Positions 2,271-14,452 of a DNA stretch of 42,513 nt are shown here, piece after piece. How positions within the stretch are numbered: position 1 is the first letter of the stretch; each line of letters opens with the position of its first letter. The notes under the pieces are model-generated. The model made no database searches. It was given only the letters and a program-made list of their open reading frames with translations, and was not told the origin of the DNA. Source of the DNA: Bacteroidetes bacterium MED-G13 (GTDB lineage: Bacteria; Bacteroidota; Bacteroidia; Flavobacteriales; Flavobacteriaceae); contig NTKO01000008.1 in NCBI GenBank assembly GCA_002457735.1, positions 1 to 42,513 on the forward strand, written 5' to 3'. Both the position numbers and the translations under genes were made by a program.

Positions 2271-2278
2271 TTAAATTA

Positions 2279-2629: not shown

Positions 2630-2647
2630 ATACAATACTTTTAAAAA

Positions 2648-3067: not shown

Positions 3068-3112
3068 ATTTATAACTTTCTATATTTAATTTAAACTAAT
3101 ATTTAAATAGCT

Positions 3113-3571
3113 ATGAAAAAACTACTGATTACTTTAATTGCTGCTTCTTTGATAAACCTCAGCTGTGAAAATTCAATTGCCGAAGCTTATAATCCAAATG
3201 AGATAATATTTGTAGTAGAAATGAATAGTAACAAAGGAAAATCATATGATGATATTGCAGAATTTTCAAAGTTCTATACTAAAGCAATTGATAAAAAAGA
3301 GCCTAATTCATTAGGCTGGGGGTTTTTTGATTCTGGTGAGCAAATTGTTTTAATTGAAAGATACTTAGACGGTGATGCAATGATGCAGCATTCAAAAAAT
3401 ATTTCTGAAGGAGGCATACTTGAAACTCATTTTGTAAAGTTTATGGAACATTTTACAATTAATAAAATTGACGTCTTTGGTAACGCTTCTGATGAACTAA
3501 AAGAATTTGTTAAACCTTTTGGGTTGCCCTTCTACTTTCACCCTGAATTTGCTAAATTCAGTAGAAACTGA
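3113..3571 (+). CDS. Lipoprotein with ABM-like (dimeric alpha/beta barrel) domain
   Basis: The product has 152 residues. A signal peptide with lipobox LINLSC predicts lipid attachment at Cys19. The mature part (FVVEMN, then a helix, NSLGWGFF, IVLIERYLDGDAMMQH) has the beta-alpha-beta rhythm and the E-x-(Y/W)-x(4-5)-A-x(2)-H element of the antibiotic-biosynthesis-monooxygenase/Dabb barrel. These domains often dimerise and bind a quinone-like or other small ligand. An exported lipidated version is unusual, and no catalytic residue is certain. The CIA30-family gene follows after 3 nt, so the two are probably cotranscribed. Confidence 0.62.
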   Translation: MKKLLITLIAASLINLSCENSIAEAYNPNEIIFVVEMNSNKGKSYDDIAEFSKFYTKAIDKKEPNSLGWGFFDSGEQIVLIERYLDGDAMMQHSKNISEGGILETHFVKFMEHFTINKIDVFGNASDELKEFVKPFGLPFYFHPEFAKFSRN

Positions 3572-3574
3572 CAA

Positions 3575-4117
3575 ATGAAAAAAATAATACTGTTTCTTTT
3601 TTCAATAACTATCATGCAAAACCAAAATCAAGATTTGATTAATACTTCTAAAAATATTGGTATAAATAATTGGAGCATTGTTAACGATGATGTAATGGGT
3701 GGTGTTTCTACTTCAGAAATAACTCTAAATGAAAAAAATAAATTAGTTTTTCAGGGTAATTTATCTCTTGAGAATAATGGTGGGTTTGCATCAATTCGAT
3801 TAAATATTAGTGAAAAAAATCTGGATGATGTAAATTCTTTTGAGCTTAGATTCAAAGGCGATGGTAATATATACAAACTTAGGCTAAGACAAAACAATAG
3901 TCGTGTTTCCTATTCTTGTGATTTTAAATCCAAAAAAAACGAATGGATGGTTGTAAAACTCCCGTTAGAGAAATTTATAGCAACTTGGAGGGGGTATACT
4001 TATAAAGAATATGCTGATTTAGAAGCAGAAAAAATAACTTCATTAAGTCTTCTTATTTCTGACAAACAGCAAGGCCGTTTTAATTTAGAAATAGATTATA
4101 TAAAAGCTGTAAAATGA
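3575..4117 (+). CDS. CIA30 (NDUFAF1-like) family protein
   Basis: This 180-residue protein has WSIVNDDVMGGVSTS near residues 33-47 and GGFASIRL near residue 70. These are hallmarks of the CIA30 family, a galactose-binding-like beta sandwich named for a mitochondrial complex I assembly factor. In bacteria the role is unclear, and many members act outside complex I assembly. The hydrophobic start (MKKIILFLFSIT) may be a signal peptide. The gene lies 3 nt after the ABM-like lipoprotein gene. Its TGA stop is contained in an ATGA that begins a short repeat remnant (4114-4125). Confidence 0.85.
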   Translation: MKKIILFLFSITIMQNQNQDLINTSKNIGINNWSIVNDDVMGGVSTSEITLNEKNKLVFQGNLSLENNGGFASIRLNISEKNLDDVNSFELRFKGDGNIYKLRLRQNNSRVSYSCDFKSKKNEWMVVKLPLEKFIATWRGYTYKEYADLEAEKITSLSLLISDKQQGRFNLEIDYIKAVK

Positions 4118-4125
4118 AAAAGCTT
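4114..4125 (+). repeat. Weak remnant of MKKL-start repeat
   Basis: The twelve bases ATGAAAAAGCTT match the first eleven of the repeat seen complete at 12556 and 8110. The ATG overlaps the stop of the upstream gene (ATGA). It is short, and only the recurrence of the same placement elsewhere makes it worth listing. Confidence 0.35.
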
Positions 4126-4151
4126 AAACAATAAATATTTTAAAAACTCGA

Positions 4152-4505
4152 ATGAGAATCATTGTTATTTTATTATCATTTTTAATTTTATTTCAAAGCT
4201 GTTTTAGTTATCGGACAGTAAATTACAGTGAAATTTCAGATGATAAAAAACAAAAGGTTGAAGTTGAAATGCTAGATAGAACAAAATTCAGTGGTCAATT
4301 AGTATCCACAGATGATAAATCAATGACTTTTGATAATAATGGGATCGAACAAAAAGTTCTTAAGAAAGATATTTATGAAATTAAAATCAAAAAGTTTTCA
4401 ATTCTTAAAACTCTAGGTAAAATTGCCAAAGGAGGTGCCTGGGTAGCAGCCTCAGCAGGTATTCTTTTTATTTATGCTCTATCAAAATCTGATGGAATTC
4501 CATAA
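4152..4505 (+). CDS. Small lipoprotein, unknown function
   Basis: I do not recognise this 117-residue protein. It has a clear lipobox (LILFQSC) with the acylated Cys at residue 17. Next comes a soluble part with an SM-like/beta-rich pattern (VEVEMLDRTKFSGQLVS, then DDKSMTFDNNG). It ends in a glycine/alanine-rich hydrophobic segment (GGAWVAASAGILFIYAL) that could span or associate with a membrane. Coding is supported by the signal peptide and by spacing with its neighbours. Confidence 0.7.
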   Translation: MRIIVILLSFLILFQSCFSYRTVNYSEISDDKKQKVEVEMLDRTKFSGQLVSTDDKSMTFDNNGIEQKVLKKDIYEIKIKKFSILKTLGKIAKGGAWVAASAGILFIYALSKSDGIP

Positions 4506-4557
4506 TCAGCACCTTCATATAATAAATAATTTAAATTGAATATTATGAAAATAAAAA

Positions 4558-4570
4558 ATGAAAAAGCTAA
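4558..4570 (+). repeat. MKKL-start repeat, 13-bp copy
   Basis: ATGAAAAAGCTAA is identical to the first 13 bases of the full copies at 8110 and 12556, and the match then ends abruptly. It provides the first codons of the small membrane protein gene. Confidence 0.55.
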
Positions 4571-4764
4571 ATTCTCCAAACAATAATCATTATATCTTTT
4601 TTTGCGCTGTTATCTTTGATGTGTTTTTCTTATATAATTTAATTCAATATATCCGTTTCGGACTCGATACACATTTATATGGGTTTCTTATTTCTTTAGG
4701 TGCTGGTATTATAGTTCTTATATATCTTTGGAAAAACAATTACTTCCCACGAAACGAAAACTAG
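4558..4764 (+). CDS. Small two-helix membrane protein, unknown
   Basis: This 68-residue protein is predicted to have two membrane helices (roughly residues 13-32 and 41-58), a charged C-terminus and no recognisable family. Its first 13 bases (ATGAAAAAGCTAA) are identical to the start of the dispersed repeat, after which the sequence diverges at once. The start codon may therefore have been supplied by a repeat remnant. Confidence 0.55.
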   Translation: MKKLNSPNNNHYIFFCAVIFDVFFLYNLIQYIRFGLDTHLYGFLISLGAGIIVLIYLWKNNYFPRNEN

Positions 4765-4767
4765 AGT

Positions 4768-4790
4768 ATGAAAAAAACAAATACTATTTG
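4768..4790 (+). repeat. Degenerate MKKL-start repeat between convergent genes
   Basis: ATGAAAAAAACAAATACTAT, followed by TTG, resembles the repeat with substitutions at bases 9-12. It starts 3 nt after the stop at 4764 and lies just before the end of the minus-strand gene at 4794. Placement after a stop and between convergent genes repeats the pattern at 7497. Confidence 0.45.
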
Positions 4791-4793
4791 TTT

Positions 4794-5006
4794 CTAACAA
4801 CAACCACAGTTTTTTTGTGAAATATGGTTTTTAGACTTTTTTATATTGCAACTGTAGATAGGATATTTAGAAAGAAATAATTCGGCTAACATAACATTGG
4901 AAATAAAGCTATCAGCTCCAAATTTATTTCTTAATGTAGAGCCAAATTCTTCAATAGTATATAACTTATTTTCAATACCTAAAGGATTGTTGCCACTTTC
5001 TTTCAT
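4794..5006 (-). CDS. Small Cys-tailed protein after cruF, unknown
   Basis: This 70-residue soluble protein is not one I recognise. Its C-terminus (HISQKNCGCC) holds three closely spaced cysteines that could bind metal or be modified. It begins 9 nt after the cruF stop, so it is probably the last gene of the crtD-cruF transcript, and that position is the best support for it being real. Confidence 0.5.
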   Translation of the reverse strand: MKESGNNPLGIENKLYTIEEFGSTLRNKFGADSFISNVMLAELFLSKYPIYSCNIKKSKNHISQKNCGCC

Positions 5007-5015
5007 ATTATGAGT

Positions 5016-5648
5016 TCAGATTAAATTAAGGGAACTAAAGAACAGAAAAAAAGCAGCATATAAATTAATTGAAACAAATTTCTCTTTTTCATGAAATAAC
5101 AAGTTGTATATAGTTTGAGTAAATAATCCAATGATAAACCATCCAAGGTAATTAGTAAATGGAACCATTAAATTTTTAAATCTCCACATATCTAATTTTG
5201 GGGCTACAGGCTCCATAACAAAATCCATAAATAACATTAAAAATGCCCCAATAATAACTGTCAATAGAGGGCTCTTATTTTTTGTTAAAAAAGTAGCGAT
5301 ATTTCCAGAAATAGCCGTCAGTATTATCCAATTTACTCCAATCAAAAAAGGCACACCAAATAACTTAAAACCTAGGTTGTTTCCATATTGATAATCACCA
5401 AAAATTAAACCATAATTTACACCTAAAATCTCTGTTACCATTCCAATAAAGAAGATTAACAAAATGGATATTGTTTGATGCTTTGATTTTAAATTAAAAT
5501 TTAAAAATAAAATTATTGACATCAAATAAAGATTTAAAGAAGTAAAACCTGCAAAGAAATCTAAGTCATAAAATAACATCCCCAAGAAGCCAGAAATATG
5601 AACTAGCCAAATTATAAATATCGATATGTTTTTTTTATTGGCTTTCAA
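5016..5648 (-). CDS. cruF: Carotenoid biosynthesis protein, CruF family (1',2'-hydratase)
   Basis: This 210-residue integral membrane protein has six to seven helices. GMVTEILGVNYGLIFGDYQYG and LFGVPFLIGVNWI are diagnostic of the DUF422/CruF family, as is the acidic DFVMEPVA in a later helix. CruF hydrates the 1',2' end of a psi-end carotenoid in routes to myxol- or saproxanthin-type pigments. The start is TTG and overlaps the 3' end of crtD by 14 nt, so the two are translationally close and almost surely one operon. The product pigment is inferred, since other steps lie outside the window. Confidence 0.85.
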   Translation of the reverse strand: MKANKKNISIFIIWLVHISGFLGMLFYDLDFFAGFTSLNLYLMSIILFLNFNLKSKHQTISILLIFFIGMVTEILGVNYGLIFGDYQYGNNLGFKLFGVPFLIGVNWIILTAISGNIATFLTKNKSPLLTVIIGAFLMLFMDFVMEPVAPKLDMWRFKNLMVPFTNYLGWFIIGLFTQTIYNLLFHEKEKFVSINLYAAFFLFFSSLNLI

Positions 5649-7095
5649 TTAAATCAGAAACTATTTTTGATGATAAAATCGCCAATGGAATTCCTCCACC
5701 AGGGTGTACACTCCCCCCACAAAAAAATAGATTTTTTATTTTCTTTGTGAAATTTGGATGCCTCATAAAAGAAGACATAATATTGTTACTAGAGCTTCCA
5801 TAAAGAGAGCCGTTAAATGAATTTGTGTTTGATTCTAAATCAATTGGGCTGTAAACTTTTTCCTTTACAATATTTTTTCCAATTTCAACACCTAGTGTTT
5901 TTTCAAGCTTATTAATTATTTTTTTTCTAGTAATCTTAATTTGTCTATCCCAATCTTGATTTAGATTATATGGCGAATTTATCATTACAAACCAATTTTC
6001 AGAATTTTTCGGAGCATCCTTTGACACATCCTTACATGAAATATTAACGTAAACAGTAGGATCATCAAAAATTTCCTTTTTTTCAAAAATTGCATTAAAC
6101 TCTTCTTCATAATTCGAAGAAAAAAATATGTTATGTAAGTCTAATTCATCATAAGTTCCATTAATTCCCCAATAAAAAATTAGAGCGGAACTAGAACTTT
6201 CATTTTTCAAAGACCTATGCTTAAACTTCTGTTTTAATAATTCTTTATAGGTGAAATTTACATCAACATTTGATACAATAATATCAGACTCAATCACCTC
6301 ATTATTTACTCTTATTTTCTTAGCAATATTTTTTTCTAAAATAATTTCATCAACATTACAATTAAAATGAAATTTTACGCCAACATGCTTAGCTAAATTA
6401 AATATAGCATTTGTTATTTCATACATTCCGCCATGGGGGATAAATGTCCCAAAATGATTTTCCAAATGTTGAATTAATGTCATCATTCCAGGTGTTTTGT
6501 AGGGTGACGAGCCATTATAAGTTGCATACCTGTCAAATATTTGTATTAGGTATTTATTTTTTAACTCGTCAGAATTCACCTCATTTAATGTTCTATTAAT
6601 CTGGAAAATATTTAAATTAAAAAGGGCTTTAATTGTTTCAAGATTTAAAAAGCTAGAAAACCTGTGGAGTGATTTTTTCAGAAAAATCTTCTCCGTTAAA
6701 TCATATTTTATTTTAGCTTTTTTTAAATATTTATTAACCACTGACTCTTCCACCTGAAATTTATTTTTAACCTCTTTTAAGAATTTTTTATTTTCTGAAA
6801 AAGCAGTAAATTTTGTTTTGTCATCCCAAAAATATTTACAATGTATTTCCTTTTTTTTGTAGTTAAAATAATCCCTGGGGTTTAGATCAAATAGTTCAAA
6901 TAATTCATCAACTAAGAATGGCATCGTAAATAAGGAAGGGCCAGCGTCAAATCTAAACTCATCCAATTTGAAAGTGTTTAGTTTCCCTCCAGGCATTTTA
7001 TTTTTTTCATAAACATCAACATCAAAGCCCATTGATTTTAGCCGAATTGCGGCAGATATTCCACTTACACCAGAGCCTATTATTGATACTTTCAT
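5635..7095 (-). CDS. crtD: CrtI-family carotenoid desaturase, probably CrtD
   Basis: This 486-residue FAD-dependent desaturase has the N-terminal dinucleotide fold SIIGSGVSGISAAIRL (GxGxxG near residues 7-12), then PGGKLNTF and FDAGPSLFTMP. Its C-terminal FAD motif is LFFCGGSVHPGGGIPLAILS. The family covers phytoene desaturase (CrtI) and the 3,4-desaturase CrtD. Overlap with cruF favours CrtD, which acts on the 1'-hydroxylated end made by CruF. Divergence from a short upstream gene leaves about 220 bp holding a candidate minus-strand promoter at 7217-7244. Confidence 0.82.
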   Translation of the reverse strand: MKVSIIGSGVSGISAAIRLKSMGFDVDVYEKNKMPGGKLNTFKLDEFRFDAGPSLFTMPFLVDELFELFDLNPRDYFNYKKKEIHCKYFWDDKTKFTAFSENKKFLKEVKNKFQVEESVVNKYLKKAKIKYDLTEKIFLKKSLHRFSSFLNLETIKALFNLNIFQINRTLNEVNSDELKNKYLIQIFDRYATYNGSSPYKTPGMMTLIQHLENHFGTFIPHGGMYEITNAIFNLAKHVGVKFHFNCNVDEIILEKNIAKKIRVNNEVIESDIIVSNVDVNFTYKELLKQKFKHRSLKNESSSSALIFYWGINGTYDELDLHNIFFSSNYEEEFNAIFEKKEIFDDPTVYVNISCKDVSKDAPKNSENWFVMINSPYNLNQDWDRQIKITRKKIINKLEKTLGVEIGKNIVKEKVYSPIDLESNTNSFNGSLYGSSSNNIMSSFMRHPNFTKKIKNLFFCGGSVHPGGGIPLAILSSKIVSDLIESQ

Positions 7096-7216
7096 TTATA
7101 AATAAAACTTACTTGCAATTTAAATGCCGTTTCTAATAACTCAAAGTAAAAAGCATTGTGAAATTCATAATTTTTTTGATAATTTTTTAAACTTTGTTTA
7201 AGTGTTATATGTATAT

Positions 7217-7244
7217 CAAACATATACCATTATGTATAGCGCAA
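7217..7244 (-). promoter_or_regulatory. Candidate promoter for crtD-cruF
   Basis: Read on the minus strand, TTG (7242-7244), 17 nt and TATGTTTG (7217-7224) resemble the Bacteroidota -33/-7 promoter (TTG, about 19 nt, TAnnTTTG). It would give a 5' leader of roughly 115 nt. The spacing is a little short, so confidence is modest. Confidence 0.4.
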
Positions 7245-7252
7245 CTTACTAT
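7242..7252 (+). repeat. CAACTTACTAT leader core, copy 1
   Basis: CAACTTACTAT occurs here, at 8070-8080 and at 9355-9365, and with one change at 8784-8794. Each copy lies tens of bases before a short plus-strand reading frame. This copy is embedded in a longer weakly similar stretch running to about 7295. Confidence 0.45.
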
Positions 7253-7292
7253 AAACCATAAACAACTTTTTTACTAATTTTAACCCTAACTA

Positions 7293-7316
7293 ATGAAAAA
7301 GATAAAACTATTATAT
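7293..7316 (+). repeat. Degenerate MKKL-start repeat
   Basis: ATGAAAAAGATAAAACTATT and the next four bases match the full repeat with a few substitutions. The tract sits directly before the ATG of the small membrane gene at 7318, where it could act as part of the leader. Confidence 0.45.
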
Positions 7317-7317
7317 A

Positions 7318-7500
7318 ATGAAATTTAGTTGGTCTGAAACTATTTTATGGCTGTCCATATTGAGTCTTACAGTTACTATGAGTGCTGAATTTATTTCTGA
7401 TTATATAGGTATTGATGCTTGGACAATACTCTATTTTGGAATTGGTCTTGTTGCAATTGCAGTGTTTTTAATAGTATTAAAGTTTAAAAAAAAGAAATGA
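7318..7500 (+). CDS. Small membrane protein, unknown
   Basis: This 60-residue protein has two predicted helices (about 10-27 and 35-54), a lysine-rich tail (KFKKKK) and no recognised family. The positive-inside tail suggests a genuine small membrane protein. Its TGA stop overlaps the ATG of a repeat copy (ATGA at 7497). Confidence 0.5.
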   Translation: MKFSWSETILWLSILSLTVTMSAEFISDYIGIDAWTILYFGIGLVAIAVFLIVLKFKKKK

Positions 7501-7520
7501 AAAAGCTAATACTATTACTA
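7497..7520 (+). repeat. MKKL-start repeat, 24-bp perfect copy at a convergent gene junction
   Basis: Twenty-four bases are identical to the start of the full copies at 8110 and 12556. The leading ATGA contains the stop of the plus-strand gene ending at 7500. The terminal CTA at 7518-7520 is the TAG stop of the minus-strand methyltransferase. The repeat therefore exactly fills the junction. Confidence 0.75.
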
Positions 7521-7961
7521 AATCCACCTTCTTGTTTTAATCTTATATGACATGTATTCTCTCCCAAATTTTTCTGTAAGAAAAATTTCTTCTCTTTTAA
7601 TTTGAAATCTATTTATCCAAAAATAAAAAAGGAAAGGGGTTGTAATTGAAAAGATATTCAAATAGAATATTGATGTTGATATAACGATCATCAACAAACC
7701 TAAATACATCGGATTTCTTGAATATTTATAGATTCCAGAGGTTATAAGTTTGTTAACTTTTTTAAACTTTATTGGATCAATTGTGGTTTTTGATTTTATA
7801 AACTTAAAAATTGGATTAGTTAAAATAAGCACCCCAATTAAAAGAATAATAATTGAGATTAAGTCTTGATTTGGTAAATGAATTAGATCAGTTTTTTTGG
7901 AAGAAAAAAAATTAGAAATAACTAAAGCCAGAACTAATATAGGTGGTGGTATTCTTATCAT
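7518..7961 (-). CDS. ICMT/PEMT-family membrane methyltransferase
   Basis: This 147-residue membrane protein carries TSGIYKYSRNPMYLG and then EEIFLTEKFGREYMSYK with a terminal RRWI. These are the signature of isoprenylcysteine carboxyl methyltransferase-like enzymes, whose C-terminal helices bind S-adenosylmethionine. Bacterial members methylate varied small or lipid substrates, and the target here is unknown. Four hydrophobic segments are visible. The stop codon lies inside a repeat copy, but the C-terminus is the normal one for the family. Confidence 0.85.
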   Translation of the reverse strand: MIRIPPPILVLALVISNFFSSKKTDLIHLPNQDLISIIILLIGVLILTNPIFKFIKSKTTIDPIKFKKVNKLITSGIYKYSRNPMYLGLLMIVISTSIFYLNIFSITTPFLFYFWINRFQIKREEIFLTEKFGREYMSYKIKTRRWI

Positions 7962-8042
7962 TTTTTAAATATCACAATAATGATTTTAAACAAAATAATA
8001 AATTTTTTATTAATTAACTATTTGCTAAATACAATGTATCGG

Positions 8043-8109
8043 GCAAAATACCACTTGTACAACCCCTATCAACTTACTATCTTGTTGATACACTAAACAA
8101 CTAATTAAT
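8043..8109 (+). repeat. Promoter/leader repeat, copy R1
   Basis: The roughly 65 bases before the gene at 8110 closely match those before the gene at 9392 (9328-9391), including an identical CAACTTACTATCTTG. The shared stretch contains a promoter-like TTG/TATCTTG pair, so both genes appear to carry the same duplicated control region. Confidence 0.7.
8055..8084 (+). promoter_or_regulatory. Candidate promoter of the 8110 gene
   Basis: TTG at 8055-8057 is followed by 20 nt and TATCTTG at 8078-8084, close to the Bacteroidota -33/-7 pattern but one base short in the -7 box. An equivalent pair with the same 20-nt spacing lies at 9340-9369. Confidence 0.45.
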
Positions 8110-8160
8110 ATGAAAAAGCTAATACTATTACTATTTATTCCAATTGTATCTTTTGGGCAA
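8110..8160 (+). repeat. MKKL-start repeat, full-length copy in a gene
   Basis: The 51 bases encoding MKKLILLLFIPIVSFGQ differ at only two positions from the copy at 12556-12606, even though the proteins are unrelated beyond it. Identity at synonymous positions shows common DNA descent, not just similar signal peptides. Confidence 0.85.
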
Positions 8161-8649
8161 GGGCAAAAAAAAGTAATGAATCAAAATCCAATAATAAAAA
8201 AGAAGATGAAGATGCAAATGAAAAAAGAGCTTGATTCCAAGGCTTTTAGAATGAAAAAGAAAATTGAAAAAGAAATTATTGAAAAATGGGAAGAATATAG
8301 TAAAGCTTTTGAATATTCAGATTTTGTTAAAATAAAAAGTTATTTCACATTTCCTGTTACAATATCTCTTTTCAAAGATCCCTTTTTAATTTACAATGAG
8401 AATGAATTAATTAAATTCTACAAGAATATTAGGGCGAATGTTCAAAAAGGATATAAGTATAGTAAACTTGAGAAGTCAAGGTTAATTTGGATAGCTAAAG
8501 ATATATGCGCTTTAGATGCTACATATTCTAGATTTAATGAAAGTTATGAAAAGGTTTTTACAGGAAGAGGAATTTATATGTACAAAAAAGTTGACGAGGC
8601 TTGGAAAATGTTCTCAATGTCAGGTATTGAAATGGATGATAAAAAATAG
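8110..8649 (+). CDS. Secreted NTF2-like protein
   Basis: This 179-residue protein has signal peptide MKKLILLLFIPIVSFGQ, with cleavage expected near residue 17. A Lys/Met-rich linker (about 20-55) follows, and then a domain whose pattern fits NTF2/SnoaL-like folds: EKWEEYSKAFEYSDFVKIKSYF, CALDATYSRFNE and GRGIYMYKKVDEAWKMFSMSG. Such domains bind small ligands or act as enzymes, and no catalytic residue is clear. The first 51 bases are 49/51 identical to the start of the unrelated esterase gene at 12556, so its signal peptide belongs to the dispersed repeat family. It has its own promoter-like leader. Confidence 0.78.
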   Translation: MKKLILLLFIPIVSFGQGQKKVMNQNPIIKKKMKMQMKKELDSKAFRMKKKIEKEIIEKWEEYSKAFEYSDFVKIKSYFTFPVTISLFKDPFLIYNENELIKFYKNIRANVQKGYKYSKLEKSRLIWIAKDICALDATYSRFNESYEKVFTGRGIYMYKKVDEAWKMFSMSGIEMDDKK

Positions 8650-8650
8650 T

Positions 8651-8686
8651 ATGAAAAGGTTAATACTATTACTATTTATTCCGCTT
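8651..8686 (+). repeat. MKKL-start repeat, truncated copy (mini-ORF)
   Basis: This copy matches the full copies at 33 of 36 bases and starts one base after the stop at 8649. In frame it reads MKRLILLLFIPLII and then stops at 8693-8695, so it is a signal-peptide start with no gene attached. Confidence 0.75.
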
Positions 8687-8783
8687 ATAATTTAATTTAC
8701 ATATATTAGCACCACACAAAACGAATTGGTTTGATTAATTGCTATGGTTGGCTTTCTTTTCAAACCTTTTCATTTTTGTCTAG

Positions 8784-8794
8784 CAACTCACTAT
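8784..8794 (+). repeat. CAACTCACTAT leader core, variant copy
   Basis: This is one base different from the CAACTTACTAT core at 7242, 8070 and 9355. It lies about 50 nt before the small reading frame at 8844 and is preceded by TAG as at 7237. Weak, but part of a pattern. Confidence 0.35.
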
Positions 8795-8843
8795 AAAACT
8801 TTTTCACTAACTTGTAAATGCACTTAACAAATCAAAACTTTAT

Positions 8844-8972
8844 ATGGGAACAAAAAATAAAGAGTTAATAAATAATATATCTCAAACAATTTCTAAAGAA
8901 TTGAAAAAACCTAATGGAGGTAATAAGAAACTTATTGATACACTACAGAAGATTTTAGACAAGGCTTCTTAA
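8844..8972 (+). CDS. Possible 42-residue soluble peptide
   Basis: This short frame begins MGTKNKELINNISQ, contains LKKPNGGNKK and ends LQKILDKAS. It is hydrophilic and helix-prone, without a signal peptide or known family. It is supported by codon usage like its neighbours, a leader-like repeat core upstream at 8784 and a repeat copy 9 nt after its stop, which elsewhere marks gene ends. It remains uncertain because it is short. Confidence 0.4.
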   Translation: MGTKNKELINNISQTISKELKKPNGGNKKLIDTLQKILDKAS

Positions 8973-8981
8973 TTAATCATT

Positions 8982-9012
8982 ATGAAAAGGCTAATGCTAT
9001 TGTTATTTATTC
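8982..9012 (+). repeat. MKKL-start repeat, truncated copy (mini-ORF)
   Basis: Twenty-seven of 31 bases match the consensus. In frame it reads MKRLMLLLFIQS and stops at 9018-9020. It starts 9 nt after the stop of the 42-residue frame and abuts the 3' end of the minus-strand gene at 9024. Confidence 0.7.
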
Positions 9013-9023
9013 AATCTTGATGG

Positions 9024-9209
9024 TTATTTGTTTTGCTTATAATGCTTTATAAGCCTTCTTATACCTAAAACAAAATAAATTGAACTAAGTCCAAGAATCC
9101 ATACTGCCATTGTGGACTTATTCATTTCGTCTGGAATATTAAAATAAACCAGTATGGAAATAGAACCCATAACTAAATATAGTCTCCCAACATTTAATAA
9201 ACTATACAT
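9024..9209 (-). CDS. Small membrane protein, unknown
   Basis: This protein of about 61 residues starts at the ATG at 9207-9209; an in-frame TTG one codon earlier is less likely. Two hydrophobic segments (LYLVMGSISILVYF and TMAVWILGLSSIYFVLGI) are followed by a basic tail (RRLIKHYKQNK). The family is not recognised. Its 3' end lies just beyond a repeat mini-ORF, as for the genes at 4794 and 7518. Confidence 0.5.
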   Translation of the reverse strand: MYSLLNVGRLYLVMGSISILVYFNIPDEMNKSTMAVWILGLSSIYFVLGIRRLIKHYKQNK

Positions 9210-9327
9210 CAATACTATTTTAGTATATAAAAATAAAAATTATATACTGAAAATACAACTGGTCTAACTATCCACTACTTATTATGCTATTTGGTTGTTT
9301 AAGTGATGTATATATATAATGTGTAGA

Positions 9328-9391
9328 GCAACATACGACTTGTAAAACCCTAAGCAACTTACTATCTTGCAGATACATTAAACCAATAATT
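9328..9391 (+). repeat. Promoter/leader repeat, copy R2
   Basis: This stretch is closely similar to 8043-8109, including identical CAACTTACTATCTTG and GATACA segments and the same distance to the start codon. It contains the same TTG-20 nt-TATCTTG arrangement. Confidence 0.7.
9340..9369 (+). promoter_or_regulatory. Candidate promoter of the 9392 gene
   Basis: TTG (9340-9342), 20 nt and TATCTTG (9363-9369) form the same arrangement as at 8055-8084. The promoter is inferred from resemblance to the Bacteroidota consensus and from its duplication. Confidence 0.45.
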
Positions 9392-9607
9392 ATGAAAAAA
9401 ATAATCTTATTAATGTTTTCATTTTTAGTTCTTAGCTCTTGTGTTGATGCAAGCCCTAATATTAAAATGGACAACCACATCAGTATTACAATTGACGATA
9501 ACAATATTGATGGTATTCAAGGAGAGTGGAAAATAACATCAGATGAAATAGAAGAAGACGGGGAAGACGTTATAATTATTAGAATTGAAAAATCTGAATT
9601 AGAGTAA
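9392..9607 (+). CDS. Small acidic lipoprotein, unknown
   Basis: This 71-residue protein has a signal peptide ending in lipobox LVLSSC (Cys17). The mature part is strongly acidic (IDDNNIDG, EEDGEDV) and beta-prone. No family is recognised. It shares its upstream leader with the 8110 gene. The antisense frame over 9268-9504 is judged a shadow. Confidence 0.65.
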   Translation: MKKIILLMFSFLVLSSCVDASPNIKMDNHISITIDDNNIDGIQGEWKITSDEIEEDGEDVIIIRIEKSELE

Positions 9608-9623
9608 AGTTAGTACCAAAAAA

Positions 9624-9830
9624 ATGGATAAACTTGAAAAACTCATATACTCTGTCAAATATTTACCTCATGTATTATATTTTGGATCTTTGGCATTAAT
9701 TATATGTGATACGTATTTTTATTTTATTGGAGAAAGACAATTTCTTAATCAATATGTTCAAACTTTGTTGACTTTTACATTTTTTTATATGATATACTTG
9801 GCAGGTAAAAACTTAAAAAAGAATAAATGA
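9624..9830 (+). CDS. Small two-helix membrane protein, unknown
   Basis: This 68-residue protein has helices near residues 16-34 and 44-61 and a basic tail (GKNLKKNK). No known family is recognised. Its stop overlaps the next gene's start (ATGA at 9827), so the two are translationally coupled and likely work together. It lies 16 nt after the acidic lipoprotein gene. Confidence 0.6.
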   Translation: MDKLEKLIYSVKYLPHVLYFGSLALIICDTYFYFIGERQFLNQYVQTLLTFTFFYMIYLAGKNLKKNK

Positions 9831-10093
9831 ATAAGCCAATAATATTTATACTCCTAATGTCATTAATGACAATTAGTTGGGTATTGATGTATTTCATCAT
9901 AAAAGCATATTATAGGATTAATAATATTAGATTTACCTATGAAAAATGGTATCTGAATTGGAAAAAGGGTGTGACGTTAAGAGAAAAACTAATTTTGTAT
10001 GCTTTAATTCAAGTTCCCCTAGGTATAATGTTGATGATATTTAGGCCTCTCTATGATGTTTTAGATGATTTCATATTTTGCATTATTTCATGA
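9827..10093 (+). CDS. Small membrane protein, unknown
   Basis: This 88-residue protein has an N-terminal helix (IIFILLMSLMTISWVLMYFI), a basic middle (RFTYEKWYLNWKKG) and a second helix near residues 57-75. The family is not recognised. It overlaps the preceding gene by 4 nt. A repeat copy follows 23 nt after the stop. Confidence 0.6.
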   Translation: MNKPIIFILLMSLMTISWVLMYFIIKAYYRINNIRFTYEKWYLNWKKGVTLREKLILYALIQVPLGIMLMIFRPLYDVLDDFIFCIIS

Positions 10094-10116
10094 TATTGAT
10101 TGAAAGCTTAAATAGT

Positions 10117-10167
10117 ATGAAAAAGCATATACTACTATTATTTATTACGCTTATCTCAACTAAATGA
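10117..10167 (+). repeat. MKKL-start repeat as a 16-codon mini-ORF overlapping a gene start
   Basis: Thirty of the first 36 bases match the consensus. The frame encodes MKKHILLLFITLISTK and its TGA (10165-10167) overlaps the ATG of the methyltransferase gene at 10164. It therefore sits where an upstream coupling peptide would be. Whether it is translated is unknown. Confidence 0.65.
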
Positions 10168-11093
10168 TAAAAATTAAATATTGTCCTGTATGTGGATCAT
10201 CTTCTTTTAATTCTTTTGCTAAGACAACTCCTCAAATGCACCATGATGATAAGCTATTCAATTTTGATAAATGTATCAAGTGTGATTTTGTTTTTCTGAA
10301 CCCTAGATTAAAATTTAAGGATTTAAAAAACTATTACACTTCGAATTACTTACCATATCGGGGTGCAAAGGCTTGGGGGAAGTTTGAATGGTTAGTATCA
10401 CAAAGTCAAAAAAGGCTAGATTTAAAGAGGGTTAAACTAATAAAAAATATTCATAGTCTTTCAGAGGAATCACTAATCTTAGATGTAGGTTGCGGGAATC
10501 CTACTTTTTTAAAGGCTTGTCAACAAAAATTAAAATGCAAGACTATTGGAATTGACTTTAACGATGCGGGTTGGAAAAATCAATTACATAATTTTAAAAA
10601 AATAAATTTGCAAGTTGGTGAAATCAAAGATCTGCCATCTAATCTCCACCCAGATGTTATTACAATGTGGCATTATTTAGAACACGATTATAATCCTTAT
10701 GAAAACTTGAAGTCAATAAAAAAAATATGCAAACCATCAACTAAGCTTGTAATTGAAGTTCCAAATTTTGATTCATTAAGTAGAAAAAAATATGCCAAAA
10801 ACTGGGCTGGCTGGCACACACCTAGACACCTGTCATTATTTTCACCTAATAATATTGATTTATTGCTTAAAAAAAGTGGTTGGAAAGCTACTCAGGTTTT
10901 TACATATGGCACTATGAATCCATATTTACTATACTGGATGAGTGAAATGGAAAAAAAGAGAATAAATTGGAATAAAAGTATGGAAGATGAATTCATAAGT
11001 TTTATAATTGGAATGATTAAGTTTTTTCCTTTGCGGTTTAAAGAAAAAAATTCTTCACTTGGCATAATGACAATTATTGCAAATCCAAAATGA
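10164..11093 (+). CDS. Class I SAM methyltransferase with N-terminal zinc ribbon
   Basis: This 309-residue protein has CPVCGSS at residues 7-13 and CIKCDFVFLNPR near 37-48, forming a zinc-ribbon-like pair of CxxC motifs. A Methyltransf_23-type core follows: LILDVGCGN (SAM-binding motif I, near 104-112), TIGIDF and MWHYLEHDYNP, with GWHTPRHLSLFS further on. Related proteins methylate small molecules, glycans or lipid-linked sugars. The acceptor here is unknown. The start overlaps a repeat mini-ORF by 4 nt. The gene converges on the CrtA-like gene with only 3 nt between stops. Confidence 0.85.
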   Translation: MIKIKYCPVCGSSSFNSFAKTTPQMHHDDKLFNFDKCIKCDFVFLNPRLKFKDLKNYYTSNYLPYRGAKAWGKFEWLVSQSQKRLDLKRVKLIKNIHSLSEESLILDVGCGNPTFLKACQQKLKCKTIGIDFNDAGWKNQLHNFKKINLQVGEIKDLPSNLHPDVITMWHYLEHDYNPYENLKSIKKICKPSTKLVIEVPNFDSLSRKKYAKNWAGWHTPRHLSLFSPNNIDLLLKKSGWKATQVFTYGTMNPYLLYWMSEMEKKRINWNKSMEDEFISFIIGMIKFFPLRFKEKNSSLGIMTIIANPK

Positions 11094-11107
11094 TTTTTAA
11101 AAAATCA
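11091..11107. terminator. AT-only palindrome at convergent stops
   Basis: TGATTTTTAAAAAATCA is a perfect 8-bp inverted repeat around one base. It covers both stop codons of the converging genes and could act as a weak bidirectional terminator. There is no GC in the stem apart from one pair, so this is tentative. Confidence 0.3.
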
Positions 11108-11798
11108 ATTGATTATTATCATCCCAAGTCCCAAGTGATTTATATGGGTGAAACCTTGAAAACAACTCTTCTTTATACCATTTATTTTTTCGAGTTTTTC
11201 TAATTGCCTCTTTGTGTTGTTTGCTTTTATAAGCATACTCCTTTACTGCATTAAAGTTTTTCCAAAGGCTAAATGTAGCCATTTGGACAACTGGAACCTC
11301 ACCGATTCCTTTTGTATAGATCAAGCCTTTATTTCCGTCTAAAGGTTCTTGAGAAGTGGGAACATATTTCCAAAATCGAAATAGCCAACTCAATTTAATA
11401 GTTGCTCTTGTAATTATAGCAATAGGTTGATTAGGATCTAAATCAATTACTTTTTCAAAGGGGGTTTTATCAATCCAGGTTCCTGTAGAGGCAATATTTT
11501 TCATATATAGCGTATAAGTTTCTTTTGTATGATTTTTGTATTTTTTAATTAATTTTGAGCGATTAAAAAATTCATTTGCGGCTTCTTCCGATTTCCAAAC
11601 TTGTATTAAGCTGTATACAGACCAATCCGGAAGTGGATTAAAACCTTTATCCTTACCGCTTCCCATTAGTCGATAAAATGAAAGCCCTTTGACTTTGTAC
11701 AAGTCTTTGTGAGCAAGTAACATCATTATAAACGCCCAGATTTTATTTTGTAAGGATGAAAACTTAAAAAAAGAAATAGTTGTAATTTGTCTATTCAT
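11097..11798 (-). CDS. Spheroidene monooxygenase (CrtA)-like protein
   Basis: This 233-residue protein has YRLMGSGKDKGFNPLPDWSV and WKSEEAANEFFNRS. Further on come TRATIKLSWLFRFWKYVP, GIGEVPVVQMATFSLW, and YKSKQHKEAIRKTRKNKWYKEELFSRF (given here only as landmarks around residues 190-220). These fit the CrtA family, heme-dependent carotenoid 2-oxygenases in phototrophs, which also occurs in many pigmented flavobacteria. It probably modifies the carotenoid made with CrtD/CruF, although it is 4 kb away. It has its own good promoter (11850-11878). Confidence 0.8.
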   Translation of the reverse strand: MNRQITTISFFKFSSLQNKIWAFIMMLLAHKDLYKVKGLSFYRLMGSGKDKGFNPLPDWSVYSLIQVWKSEEAANEFFNRSKLIKKYKNHTKETYTLYMKNIASTGTWIDKTPFEKVIDLDPNQPIAIITRATIKLSWLFRFWKYVPTSQEPLDGNKGLIYTKGIGEVPVVQMATFSLWKNFNAVKEYAYKSKQHKEAIRKTRKNKWYKEELFSRFHPYKSLGTWDDNNQLIF

Positions 11799-11849
11799 CT
11801 TAAATAATCCGATTATTTATAATTATGAAATAAAGATTTATTGATAATA

Positions 11850-11878
11850 CAAATTTAAGGATATAAACTTAATATCAA
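11850..11878 (-). promoter_or_regulatory. Promoter of the CrtA-like gene
   Basis: On the minus strand, TTG (11876-11878), 18 nt and TAAATTTG (11850-11857) match the Bacteroidota -33/-7 consensus well. The predicted leader is about 45 nt. Confidence 0.6.
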
Positions 11879-11941
11879 ATGATTTAGCAACTTAGGATAT
11901 TACTTTAAACTAAATATTTATTAAAATTAAATTAGAATTTT

Positions 11942-11949
11942 TAATTTTG
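11942..11949 (+). promoter_or_regulatory. -7 box (TAATTTTG) just before the 11954 gene
   Basis: TAATTTTG fits TAnnTTTG and ends only 4 nt before the ATG, so the mRNA would be leaderless or nearly so. No TTG is seen at the usual -33 distance. Confidence 0.4.
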
Positions 11950-11953
11950 AAAA

Positions 11954-12547
11954 ATGGATTCAATTTTAGAAAAAAACTTGTACTTATTTAAAGAACATTT
12001 AGGCCTTATAAAGGCACATAACAACTATGATATTTTTGATCCTGAAAGCAAAGAAATGATTCTTCATTGCAGAGAAAAAAACTTGAACATCTTTTACAAA
12101 ATAGTTAGAATATTTTTAAAGGATTATAAAAGAATGACTCCCTTTGAAATTGAAATTAAAGGATTAACTGGAAAGAAAATTTTAAAGGTAAAAAAAGGCG
12201 TTTCATTTATTCTTTCAAAAATTCAGGTTTATGATGAAAATGATAATATTGTCGGAATTTTTAAACAGAGACTTTTTCCATTTGGGAATTATTTTGATAT
12301 GCTTGATAAAAGTGAAAATCTTGTCTGTAAACTCAAAGGAAATTTCATCGGTTGGAATTTTAAATTTCTTATAGAAGACTCTGAAGTTGGAATAGTTACC
12401 AAAAAATGGGCAGGTATCGGAAAGGAAATGTTTACAAGTGCAGACAATTACATTCTAGAAATAAAAGATAAAGTTGAAAAAGACAGCCCACTTAGATTAT
12501 TAATTTTAGCTGCTGTAATATGCATTGATATGGTTATTAAAGAGTAA
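11954..12547 (+). CDS. LURP-one-related / phospholipid scramblase-like protein
   Basis: This 197-residue protein carries FDPESKEMILHCREKN, IVGIFKQRLFPFG and then KKWAGIGKEMFTSADNY. The C-terminal LLILAAVICIDMVIKE resembles the membrane-anchored end of scramblase/LURP-one (Tubby-like) proteins. These form a closed beta barrel around a C-terminal helix. In bacteria the role is not established. The esterase gene follows after 8 nt. Confidence 0.8.
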   Translation: MDSILEKNLYLFKEHLGLIKAHNNYDIFDPESKEMILHCREKNLNIFYKIVRIFLKDYKRMTPFEIEIKGLTGKKILKVKKGVSFILSKIQVYDENDNIVGIFKQRLFPFGNYFDMLDKSENLVCKLKGNFIGWNFKFLIEDSEVGIVTKKWAGIGKEMFTSADNYILEIKDKVEKDSPLRLLILAAVICIDMVIKE

Positions 12548-12555
12548 GACGTGAT

Positions 12556-12606
12556 ATGAAAAAGCTAATACTATTACTATTTATTCCACTTGTTTCTTTT
12601 GGGCAA
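12556..12606 (+). repeat. MKKL-start repeat, full-length copy in a gene
   Basis: This reference copy starts ATGAAAAAGCTAATACTATT and runs to the signal-peptidase site (SFGQ). It differs at two of 51 bases from the copy at 8110. Confidence 0.85.
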
Positions 12607-13359
12607 GAACAAAACATTGATGATAGTTATTATGATAAACATATTTCATTGAAATTCTGGACGGTTGATGGAGTGGAAAGAAATGCACTTGTTTATATTC
12701 CTGAAAAAGAGTTGTTAAAAAATACTCCATTAATTTTTGTATGGCACGGACACGGAGGAAGTGCTGAAAAATTTATAAAAAGATTCCCAGTTCATAAATT
12801 ATGGAAAGAAGCAATAGTAGTTTTTCCTCAAGGAGTTAATTCAAAATCTCCTTGGGATATTAAAGCAGAAAAAACAGGTTGGCAATTTCAAATAGGAGAT
12901 TACAATGACAGAGATATCAAGTTTTTTGATACTATGTATACATATTTTTCAAATACTTTTCCAATCGACGATGAAAGGGTTTATTGTACAGGATCTTCAA
13001 ATGGGGGAACATTTACGTATATTTTACTACAATTAAGACCTAAGATTTTTGCGGCAGCGGCACCTGCAATTACTGCAAATATAGGTCTTGAAAATATATA
13101 TGAAATGAGTCTACCTCCAATTCCAATCTTTCATACTTCTGGAAAAAAAGAAAACAGTTTTACAAAGCAAACAAAGTTGGTTAATTTTATAATTAAAGAA
13201 AAAAAAGCTGAATATGTTGGATATTGGAATGATAATATTCAAACTGAATATTACAAAAGTGATAAAGGGAATTTAGTTTGGTTTAAGCATAAGGATGGTC
13301 ACAGATGGAGAACAAGAGACACTGAGTTGATAGCAAATTTTTTCAAAAAAAGTAATTAA
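12556..13359 (+). CDS. Secreted PHB-depolymerase/feruloyl-esterase-like alpha/beta hydrolase
   Basis: This 267-residue protein has signal peptide MKKLILLLFIPLVSFGQ. Its alpha/beta-hydrolase core has oxyanion-side HGHGGSAEKF, nucleophile elbow GSSNG (Ser at about residue 154) and a late KDGHRW supplying the likely catalytic His. The layout matches LpqC/esterase-PHB family enzymes, which cleave polyhydroxyalkanoate, feruloyl or acetyl esters. The exact substrate is not readable. The first 51 bases are nearly identical to those of the NTF2-like gene at 8110. It lies 8 nt after the LURP-one-like gene and 8 nt before the small gene at 13368. Confidence 0.87.
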   Translation: MKKLILLLFIPLVSFGQEQNIDDSYYDKHISLKFWTVDGVERNALVYIPEKELLKNTPLIFVWHGHGGSAEKFIKRFPVHKLWKEAIVVFPQGVNSKSPWDIKAEKTGWQFQIGDYNDRDIKFFDTMYTYFSNTFPIDDERVYCTGSSNGGTFTYILLQLRPKIFAAAAPAITANIGLENIYEMSLPPIPIFHTSGKKENSFTKQTKLVNFIIKEKKAEYVGYWNDNIQTEYYKSDKGNLVWFKHKDGHRWRTRDTELIANFFKKSN

Positions 13360-13367
13360 TGAATGAT

Positions 13368-13400
13368 GTGAAAAAGCTAATACTATTACTATTTATTCCA
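13368..13400 (+). repeat. MKKL-start repeat copy with GTG start
   Basis: Thirty-two of 33 bases match the copies at 8110 and 12556; the only change is A to G in the start codon. It provides the anchor of the small coiled-coil gene. Confidence 0.8.
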
Positions 13401-13535
13401 ATACTTATTATAGTTTTGATTTCTGAATATAATACTAATGAAACCAAAAAAAAATTAGATATAATTGAAAAAGAACTTGATGAGAAAATAAGAATTGCAA
13501 AAGAAAAAGACTCTTTAGAAAACATAAAAAACTAA
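13368..13535 (+). CDS. Small anchored coiled-coil protein, paralogue of the 14007 gene
   Basis: This 55-codon gene starts with GTG. The first 33 bases are the repeat (one mismatch), giving a membrane anchor (KKLILLLFIPILIIVLI). EYNTNETKKKLDIIEKELDEK and a C-terminal KEKDSLENIKN follow, a short charged helix. The tail aligns with that of the gene at 14007 (LEYSNYSTEKRLEFEREKAEE, then LKDSIEYKKD), and both stops are followed by ACCAACATATGATATG- or ATCAACATACGATATG-type sequence leading into a repeat copy. The homology to the second gene is the main support. Function unknown. Confidence 0.6.
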   Translation: MKKLILLLFIPILIIVLISEYNTNETKKKLDIIEKELDEKIRIAKEKDSLENIKN

Positions 13536-13548
13536 ACCAACATATGAT

Positions 13549-13561
13549 ATGAAAAAGCTAA
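13549..13561 (+). repeat. MKKL-start repeat, 13-bp truncated copy
   Basis: ATGAAAAAGCTAA starts 13 nt after the stop at 13535 and encodes only MKKLNSF before a stop. The preceding ATATGAT matches that before the copy at 14199 (ATACGAT). Confidence 0.6.
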
Positions 13562-13661
13562 ATAGCTTTTAAAGTAAAGCAACTCAGTTCTTTATTAATT
13601 GTGAAAAAGGCTATTTCAATATATATTTTAATTACTTTTATAATGAAGCTAAAAATGAATT

Positions 13662-13979
13662 ATGTATACAAAAAAAGATTATTGGATGCAGATTTTAATA
13701 GCATACATATTTTTGGCAATCGGAATTGTAATTATAAAATTTTTTAAAGAATACAGTTTATTAGGACTTCTTTTTTTAGGGTTCACTCTTTTGTGGATCA
13801 TTAAAGCTGTTAAGGTGTTTCGATCGCTAAAAGACAAAAATGTCTATCCCAAAAAATTTATTCAACTAAACCGTTGGGCTAAGTGGAGTCTTGACCCAAA
13901 GAGATTTAGGTATGTATTTTTAATTTCACTCTTATTAGGGGCTGTAATTGGAATTTTGATTGTTCTTTATAAAAACTAA
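13662..13979 (+). CDS. Membrane protein, unknown
   Basis: This 105-residue protein has three to four hydrophobic segments: ILIAYIFLAIGIVIIKFF, LLGLLFLGFTLLWIIKAV and a C-terminal FLISLLLGAVIGILIVLY. A basic soluble loop (RSLKDKNVYPKKFIQLNRW) lies between. No family is recognised. The 100 bases before it hold only the short repeat copy at 13549 and a second, poor GTG-started likeness at 13601. Confidence 0.6.
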   Translation: MYTKKDYWMQILIAYIFLAIGIVIIKFFKEYSLLGLLFLGFTLLWIIKAVKVFRSLKDKNVYPKKFIQLNRWAKWSLDPKRFRYVFLISLLLGAVIGILIVLYKN

Positions 13980-14006
13980 TAAAATAATTAAAGAGCAAGA
14001 AACGAT

Positions 14007-14186
14007 ATGAAAAAGGATGAAAAAACAGCAGTTGGAATCATTTTTATAGTTACATTAATTTTAATTTTAGCTTTAGAGTATTCTAATTATAGCACAGAAA
14101 AAAGGCTTGAATTTGAAAGAGAAAAAGCTGAGGAAAGATTAGAGCTTTCCAAATTAAAAGACTCAATAGAATATAAAAAAGACTAA
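14007..14186 (+). CDS. Small anchored coiled-coil protein, paralogue of the 13368 gene
   Basis: This 59-residue protein starts MKKDEKTAVG and has one helix (IIFIVTLILILALEY). A charged coiled-coil-like tail follows (STEKRLEFEREKAEERLELS) and ends LKDSIEYKKD. The tail and the downstream flank match the gene at 13368, so the two arose by duplication, but this copy has a different N-terminus. It does not carry the MKKLILLL repeat, although it also starts with ATGAAAAAGG preceded by ACGAT. Function unknown. Confidence 0.6.
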   Translation: MKKDEKTAVGIIFIVTLILILALEYSNYSTEKRLEFEREKAEERLELSKLKDSIEYKKD

Positions 14187-14198
14187 TCAACATACGAT

Positions 14199-14211
14199 AT
14201 GAAAAAGCTAA
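14199..14211 (+). repeat. MKKL-start repeat, 13-bp truncated copy, last in the array
   Basis: ATGAAAAAGCTAA starts 12 nt after the stop at 14186 and encodes MKKLKSAK before a stop. It directly abuts the TGCCA repeat cluster and is the rightmost copy I can find. Confidence 0.6.
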
Positions 14212-14215
14212 AGAG

Positions 14216-14273
14216 TGCCAAATGAGTTGCCATATAGTTGCCACTTTTTATAAGGACTGCCATATAACTGCCA
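14216..14273. repeat. Cluster of five TGCCA direct repeats beside tRNA-Asn
   Basis: TGCCA occurs at 14216, 14228, 14239, 14258 and 14269, always on the same strand. Two 18-bp units are near repeats: GTTGCCATATAGTTGCCA (14226-14243) and ACTGCCATATAACTGCCA (14256-14273). Such closely spaced direct repeats resemble protein-binding iterons or recombinase arm sites. The 300 bp around it hold no gene apart from the terminator and tRNA. Confidence 0.65.
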
Positions 14274-14301
14274 AAAAATTGTACCTTTAACTTGTAACTA
14301 T

Positions 14302-14333
14302 TAAAAAAGAAGCCCCCGATTTCTCGAAGGCTT
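14302..14333 (-). terminator. Rho-independent terminator after tRNA-Asn
   Basis: Read on the minus strand, AAGCC TTCGA, loop GAAA and TCGGG GGCTT form a 10-bp stem (two G-T pairs), followed by CTTTTTTAA. It lies about 30 nt past the tRNA 3' end and would end its transcript. Confidence 0.8.
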
Positions 14334-14362
14334 TTATCTGTGTAGTGTAGCGGTTAAGCTTG

Positions 14363-14436: not shown

Positions 14437-14452
14437 ATTTATTAAGTGTGGG

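Follow-up and report, generated by a model that had tools for sequence, protein, structure and literature searches.

Two stretches of DNA, at positions 8043 to 8109 and 9328 to 9391, which serve as leaders of two unrelated genes in the 42,513-nucleotide piece of the Bacteroidetes bacterium MED-G13 genome analyzed here (contig NTKO01000008.1; hereafter, the window), are homologous to each other. They are probably copies of a portable promoter, designated P2, within a cassette island that is anchored at a tRNA-Asn gene and appears to be rebuilt by recombination at short seams. The island itself is variable and recurs throughout a single genus of uncultured Flavobacteriaceae.

The two P2-type leaders, both on the plus strand, are 77.5% identical over 111 alignment columns (8026-8136 against 9311-9418; E = 3.7e-18) and have a local score of 97, compared to a maximum of 32 among 500 shuffled pairs. 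Their homology starts upstream of 8043 and extends through the first nine codons of both genes. The close similarity of these regions had been noted in the first-pass annotation, together with the shared 15-mer CAACTTACTATCTTG and the TTG-N20-TATCTTG pattern, and all of this proved correct: the 15-mer is found, letter for letter, at 8070-8084 and 9355-9369, and the pattern at 8055-8057/8078-8084 and 9340-9342/9363-9369. With the next base included, its second part becomes TATCTTGY, a predicted -7 box (TATCTTGT at 8078-8085 in copy 1 and TATCTTGC at 9363-9370 in copy 2), and TTG would be the -33 element. The ATG follows 24 nt behind the -7 box in copy 1 and 21 nt behind it in copy 2. Both leaders are probably active as promoters; the geometry of the SM5 promoter class discussed below predicts their starts at 8090 and 9375 and 5' untranslated regions (UTRs) of 20 and 17 nt, respectively. 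A genome-wide search for the 15-mer, as had been suggested, produced two matches in 1,061,404 bases, which are the two leaders, and none in the reversed control.

Copy 1 precedes the gene at 8110..8649 (plus strand), which opens with a 32-base repeat in its exact form and whose 179-aa product has a signal-peptide-like start. Copy 2 precedes the gene at 9392..9607 (plus strand) for a 71-aa acidic protein with a lipoprotein-like N terminus, in which we take LSSC to be the lipoprotein-like motif. Clustering assigned the two products to different families, in agreement with the earlier view that these genes are unrelated; the names proposed for them fared less well, as the NTF2-like assignment of the first product comes from a weak match to DUF6841 (E = 0.0011, under the Pfam cut-off) and the profile search of the second, the supposed lipoprotein, gave no family above the cut-off.

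The core 11-mer CAACTTACTAT, reported in the same annotation in front of short frames at 7242 (exact) and 8784 (one change), is indeed present at both sites, but in another register and not at a -7 box. Here, it is a variant of CAACATACGAT and lies upstream of a second module type, P1 (AAACCATAAACAACTTTTTCACTAACTTGT). The plus-strand modules in question are a degenerate one at 7242..7290, preceding a 60-aa frame at 7318, and a shortened one at 8784..8843, preceding a 42-aa frame at 8844. In the former, the box, also degenerate, is found 22 bases after the 11-mer at about 7275; in the latter, it is TAACTTGT at 8808-8815, 13 bases after the 11-mer. Given these distances, neither site repeats the -7 region of the leaders. 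Two other exact copies of CAACTTACTAT in the genome (C20 and C29) lie within open frames that are over 100 codons long.

P2 modules have the form TTG-N20-TAtCTTGY, followed by some 20 to 25 nt before the ATG, and are frequently preceded by CAACATACGA or ATCCTCGTTTCTTACTTGAC. With up to 7 mismatches allowed, the P2 consensus AAACCCTAAACAACTTACTATCTTGT had 24 matches in 26 stretches, 22 of them on the array strand and two, with 7 mismatches each, on the other strand; all 32 matches to the P1 consensus in these stretches were on the array strand. An ATG frame of at least 40 aa started within 60 nt of 23 of the 24 P2 and 27 of the 32 P1 matches (50/56 in total), mostly at a distance of 22 to 29 nt. 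In the eight tRNA-Asn islands with flanks, every P2 core (7/7) and every P1 core (10/10) is located within the island. The leader is a genuine module, and such leaders are most likely mobile promoter modules that would put newly joined genes under common control.

In Flavobacterium psychrophilum, TAnnTTTG is the box of the primary sigma factor. Promoters of the SM5 class carry TAnnTTGY, one base shorter, at -12 to -5 relative to the start, and their most likely reader is an alternative sigma factor; the median 5' UTR there is 24 (PMC9723704). The two boxes are distributed differently in the genomes studied here. Upstream of island genes (n = 168), TAnnTTGY occurs 75 times versus 24.6 expected, and TAnnTTTG occurs there too, 27 times versus 19.8 expected. 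Upstream of flank genes (n = 135), TAnnTTTG is found 42 times versus 17.6 expected and TAnnTTGY 27 times versus 22.6, all expectations being derived from shuffles that preserved base content only. This box-only test was used instead of a strict promoter scan that required the TTG element and had almost no matches upstream of flank genes. These counts show TAnnTTGY to be an island-typical -7 box that precedes genes there and is distinct from TAnnTTTG, and one sigma factor may read the leader modules. The shared regulation proposed in the first-pass annotation is supported at the level of sequence, with a TAnnTTGY class in the island that is separate from the TAnnTTTG class of the flanks.

The second recurrent element is the 32-base repeat ATGAAAAAGCTAATACTATTACTATTTATTCC. 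In the window, this repeat or its remnant is found, always on the plus strand and mostly right after a gene stop, at 7497, 8110, 8651, 8982, 10117, 12556, and 13368. It encodes the signal-peptide-like start MKKLILLLFIP... of the long genes at 8110 and 12556, where the copy at 12556..12587, an exact one, opens a 267-aa esterase-like protein (12556-13359). The copy at 13368..13399 has 1 mismatch and begins a 55-aa frame with GTG. Four of these seven sites are dead: 7497..7528 (5 mismatches; overlapping the stop of the frame at 7318-7500), 8651..8682 (2 mismatches; behind the stop of the gene at 8110-8649), 8982..9013 (5 mismatches), and 10117..10148 (5 mismatches). A half repeat, ATGAAAAAGCTAA, at 13549..13561 (plus strand) follows the CAACATATGAT variant of the seam, and the array ends at 14187..14290 (plus strand) with an CAACATACGAT seam, another half repeat (14199), and a terminal anchor, GAGTGCCAAATGAGTTGCC..., in which TGCCA-type units recur. 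The seam element CAACATACGA frequently precedes the repeat or the promoter modules; by column counts, about half of the 119 repeat sites are without the CAACATACGAT element.

The repeat is sharply conserved over its 32 bases. In a codon-free search, which fixed only the first Lys codon as AAA, 59 of the 76 listed places (by a hand count) had the exact repeat sequence. Its nine identical codons, which include some rarer ones (CTA, 0.13 of Leu; AAG, 0.18 of Lys), have a joint probability of 2.4e-5 under the codon usage of the flanks, which favors descent of the DNA itself. Coding copies have stayed exact more often than dead ones (45/89 versus 7/31), so there is selection on the signal peptide as well.

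The island extends in the window at least over positions 2279..14361, with gene families known also from other islands beginning at 2279 and the actual left end lying beyond the contig. It is followed by the anchoring tRNA-Asn(GTT) gene (14362..14436, minus strand), the only RNA found in an Rfam scan of positions 1-16000, and by conserved chromosome with an rseP-like gene. The relatives used for comparison are incomplete assemblies (56 to 86% complete). For the analysis, 20 stretches, 13 more, and another 20 for a recheck were taken, all chosen for holding the repeat. The variable part, approximately 9 to 17 kb long, is bordered by a conserved block on its left and by tRNA-Asn-rseP on the other side. 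Eight contigs with both sides present have 50 copies of the repeat, counted with at most 6 mismatches, in 110,426 island positions versus 0 in 152,790 flank positions, with 0 copies on the opposite strand, and CAACATACGA occurs 38 times in the islands and 0 in the flanks; the island borders were placed by eye from gene maps, and the counts are not independent, since promoter and repeat copies share descent. Modules and repeat, judged by these counts, are concentrated in the islands and have a single orientation within those at tRNA-Asn.

Beyond the window, 9 of the 20 stretches that make up the first set have tRNA-Asn, as do loci L120, L122, L126, L144, and L145; tRNA-Ala is found in L062 and L125, and 7 of the first 20 stretches lack any tRNA. 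Two arrays end at tRNA-Ala, the first from the same genome as the window and the second from genome G010. Several arrays are closed by the anchor GAGTGCCAAATGAG... or its variant, which in the window, L061, L062, and L063 comes immediately after the half repeat. Repeat copies are better preserved closer to the tRNA (rho = 0.35; 98 sites at 13 loci), although the trend is modest; when only the 70 sites that have no more than 8 mismatches are considered, rho is 0.36 and the within-locus permutation p is 0.003. The cargo of the window includes a PEMT-type methyltransferase, a methyltransferase 23, a scramblase, and an esterase. A Pfam scan of 85 island proteins, with those shorter than 90 aa left out, showed, among the matches listed, secretion-tail domains in 5 proteins and, in one or two each, SnoaL-like, TonB C-terminal, GH43, sulfatase-modifying factor, peptidase M28, carotenoid synthesis, scramblase, and further families. 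A transposase as the carrier found no support: there is none among the 25 families listed, of 73 matched, for these 85 proteins.

The codon-free search of 40 genomes had matches in 18, namely, the window's genome and 17 of the 20 others of its genus, and in none of the 19 genomes outside it. Among 299 Flavobacteriaceae genomes, 4 had matches, three of them in the genus and one, at a contig end, in genome G170 of another genus; 295 of the 296 other-genus genomes were without a mismatch-free match. An exact 29-mer is present in 38 stretches of GTDB r220 contigs, all of which are titled Flavobacteriaceae, Flavobacteriales, Bacteroidetes, or Ulvibacter, and in no viral contigs. Going by isolate names, we take the hosts to be marine organisms; the AG- and AH- isolates among the relatives are presumably marine single-cell genomes, although many are titled as metagenome-assembled ones.

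Isolated copies of the repeat also occur near other tRNA genes. In L128, L129, and L140, which represent 3 of the 15 informative loci (L141, which would be the 16th, breaks off at the cluster), a copy follows a tRNA Thr-Tyr-Gly-Thr cluster, some 95 nt past its last gene and beside an Xer-like recombinase gene. The copy in L143 is 3.3 kb from tRNA-Thr, and the one in L052 lies beyond tRNA-His. All five are oriented away from the tRNA, opposite to the copies in the arrays. The copies in L055 and L146 lie 5' of tRNA-Arg and tRNA-Ala, respectively. One of the 76 places from the codon-free search (G015:C14) was left out of this inspection.

Comparison of gene neighborhoods indicates extensive shuffling. 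Between genes of recurring families (those without a family were left out), there are 52 junctions with the repeat and 136 without it. Across the repeat, none of 17 comparisons gave the same downstream family and none of 50 gave the same upstream family, versus 41/171 and 41/185, respectively, at repeat-free junctions, the compared pairs being non-independent. Repeat-free junctions are also much rearranged, and therefore the 32-base repeat is not the sole seam. Of the 298 island gene pairs shared within 45 genome pairs, each having three or more flank genes, 96 are more alike than even the closest flank gene of the two genomes concerned. By these comparisons, the neighbors change across the repeat, and the cassettes have been exchanged between species. 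In one clean case, two genomes differ by a single cassette that lies precisely between two copies of the repeat: genome G007 has families 98-repeat-53 and genome G003 has 98-repeat-70-repeat-53, the sequences to the left and right being similar and 25 nt of the repeat being shared. The crossover cannot be mapped to one base because the repeat itself is common to both sides. The left ends of non-coding cassettes stop at differing positions within the repeat. The first-pass annotation had described control regions and signal peptides as duplicated within this block, with shared regulation of new genes as the outcome. Both are indeed repeated before unrelated genes, but in a genus-wide island whose unrelated cassettes are shuffled among species rather than through local duplication as a source of new genes, which by itself is ruled out by the presence of the same modules and cassettes in relatives throughout the genus.

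The scheme that we favor assumes repeated rebuilding of the island by recombination at two seams, the 32-base repeat and the CAACATACGA element. A gene joined at such a seam would gain, in a single step, either a start codon with a signal peptide or a promoter, and unrelated genes would therefore come under one type of control, probably exerted by an alternative sigma factor that reads the SM5-like box. Joining would occur by short-homology recombination, not through a dedicated recombinase, with the seams kept alike by recent exchange. New material may enter by tRNA-directed insertion, and the island would grow mainly from the tRNA side.

The main rival is a dedicated site-specific recombinase that cuts at the 32-base repeat, making the island an integron-like platform with the repeat as its cassette site. 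We regard this as unlikely, although several observations speak for it: the single orientation of the copies in eight islands, the sharp 32-base conservation with dead copies that are still exact, the clean single-cassette difference between G007 and G003, and the better-preserved copies near the anchor. If such a recombinase were at work, the terminal ATGAAAAAGCTAA-GAGTGCC anchor would be its primary site. There are also candidate enzymes. Two common Xer-like proteins are encoded in 21/21 and 17/21 genomes, and the repeat lies behind the tRNA cluster that adjoins a chromosomal Xer-like gene at 3 of 15 informative loci; the other 12, however, have no nearby repeat (L143 is not counted as near). 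Beyond Xer-like proteins, a tyrosine recombinase adjoins tRNA-Asn in G020, another one in G008 is beside a copy of the tRNA-Asn 3' end, and G011 has fragments. Only 3 of the 21 incomplete genomes, two with intact genes and one with fragments, show such a tyrosine recombinase, and the window's genome is not among them. Both intact enzymes best match phage integrases, scoring 25.7 bits (G020) and 36.2 bits (G008) versus the integron-integrase cut-off of 265, and a PF00589 search of the 21 incomplete genomes found no integron integrase (IntI) beside the array. The features of attC-type sites, judged by dyad and fold tests, were sought and rejected: any dyad in the repeat is within chance (74% of shuffles were at least as good), and the strands at 8 junctions showed no unusual fold (z from -0.61 to 1.14 relative to shuffles). 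Furthermore, other seams recombine too. With neither dyad nor fold and with integrases few and phage-like, short-homology recombination is favored over the dedicated recombinase. By the tests made, the island is not an integron; it is somewhat integron-like without the known parts of one.

It is improbable that the cassettes arrived singly by integrase-mediated insertion at the tRNA, in an additive, tycheposon-like manner, with the shared gene starts being secondary. Such insertion would fit with the terminal anchor shared by the tRNA-Asn and tRNA-Ala islands, the repeat copies near tRNA-His, -Arg, and -Thr, and the G008 integrase element, which lies between two tRNA-Asn 3' ends. However, in all 13 stretches with a match, one exact tRNA-Asn 3' end is at the tRNA itself, and extra ones occur only in G003 and G008, so exact tRNA-Asn ends do not separate the cassettes and tRNA 3' repeats are ruled out as cassette borders. 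Tandem duplication of a gene with its leader, followed by divergence of the coding part, would explain why the leader homology runs nine codons into the genes; it is very improbable, given that the proteins are in different families, that the same cassettes are found beside other genes in other species, and that many cassettes are more alike between species than the flanks. Independent selection for a strong promoter and a good signal peptide, without common descent of the DNA, is in line with the better preservation of coding copies but is hardly credible in view of the identical rarer codons, the exact dead copies, the lack of copies in the flanks of the eight contigs, and the 295 of 296 other-genus genomes without an exact match.

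If recombination at short seams is the right explanation, it would show how flavobacteria with small genomes can gain secretion and common control of a gene in one recombination event, and it would predict a regulon readable from sequence. It also carries a warning for annotation, as identical leaders or signal peptides in these islands would mark cassette junctions rather than related genes. Tentatively, such islands might even represent a third kind of cassette platform next to integrons and tRNA-additive islands, one that recombines at the DNA encoding the start of a signal peptide, exports captured genes' products by default, and runs all cassettes as one TAnnTTGY regulon under a dedicated alternative sigma factor. 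Searches of open papers for the signal-peptide strings had no matches and found no paper that joined cassette, signal, flavobacteria, island, and tRNA, only neighboring topics, which does not prove that such a system is unpublished.

Several known systems share parts of this organization. Like integrons and CALINs, the islands carry mostly small cassettes in one orientation with a repeated site behind each gene, and the sites are better preserved near one end (PMC9024848). The single orientation (50 versus 0 copies) and the mobility of units, seen in the single-cassette difference and the shuffled neighbors, are integron-like as well. In contrast to integrons, the island repeat is conserved in sequence rather than in structure, with no dyad or fold found, and covers the start codon and the signal-peptide region of whichever gene follows; an integron integrase was looked for without success, and internal promoters are common in the islands. 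With additive flexible genomic islands and tycheposons, our islands share the anchoring at a tRNA gene, a variable stretch amid conserved chromosome genes, and, in a few of the incomplete genomes, a tyrosine recombinase, but their cassettes are parted by signal-peptide and promoter modules, not by tRNA 3' repeats (PMC10872708, PMC5217437). The island boxes resemble SM5 of F. psychrophilum in being TAnnTTGY, one base shorter than TAnnTTTG; however, the SM5 genes listed there are chromosomal (lipopolysaccharide, amino-acid scavenging, and gliding) whereas here the box is part of a repeated island module, and the sigma factor, left unnamed in that account, is a putative one in the islands (PMC9723704). 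Finally, the vpma, vsp, and vsa loci of Mycoplasma also have a repeat at the 5' ends of surface-lipoprotein genes, and recombination at that repeat switches which gene receives the promoter or the 5' part (PMC2268961). There, a lipoprotein gene family inverts within one genome and an xer1 recombinase is adjacent (PMC2268961), whereas the islands described here, in which no inversion was seen, hold unrelated genes and show exchange between species.

The cargo of the tRNA-Asn-anchored island includes two pigment genes on the minus strand (positions 5016-7095 of the window): one is phytoene-desaturase-like, the other a carotenoid synthesis gene. Counting the window's own genome, the two are seen within the islands of seven genomes, so they move together with the array. 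A PEMT-like methyltransferase cassette, also on the minus strand (7518-7961), is shared with ten relatives, and in most of the 11 copies, as judged by eye, its end adjoins the 32-base repeat or a repeat remnant. A non-coding module (ATATATATTCGCACCACACAAAA...; 8690-8780) is found again past dead repeat copies, i.e., those that do not open a gene, in several arrays (L044, L048, L060, and L063).

The terminal anchor, common to tRNA-Asn and tRNA-Ala islands (14199-14290 in the window; also in L062 and L063), can be read as a mini-frame of 8 codons (MKKLKSAK); after it come repeats of TGCCA-type units, which are possibly integrase arm sites. The tRNA-Asn 3' half adjoining the anchor comes in two versions with unlike T-arm letters, one in L058 and L061 and the other in the window, L045, L051, and L063, as if the islands carried their own tRNA end. 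In genome G008, the cassette array has on its tRNA side an element of ~8.8 kb bearing a 353-aa phage-type integrase (L060, 11676-14001, continuing into L126); the element is bounded on either side by a tRNA-Asn 3' end copy and looks like a recent insertion.

Isolated repeats are also found. Three loci (L128, L129, and L140) share the order Xer-like recombinase gene, tRNA Thr-Tyr-Gly-Thr cluster, and, ~95 nt past the cluster, a single repeat-headed gene; 12 further Xer-like/tRNA Thr-Tyr-Gly-Thr loci have no repeat-headed gene at that position. In G170, a genome from another genus (L119/L110), one repeat copy with a single mismatch lies 143 bases from the contig end, which may reflect either an assembly breaking at the repeat or a system that reaches outside the genus.
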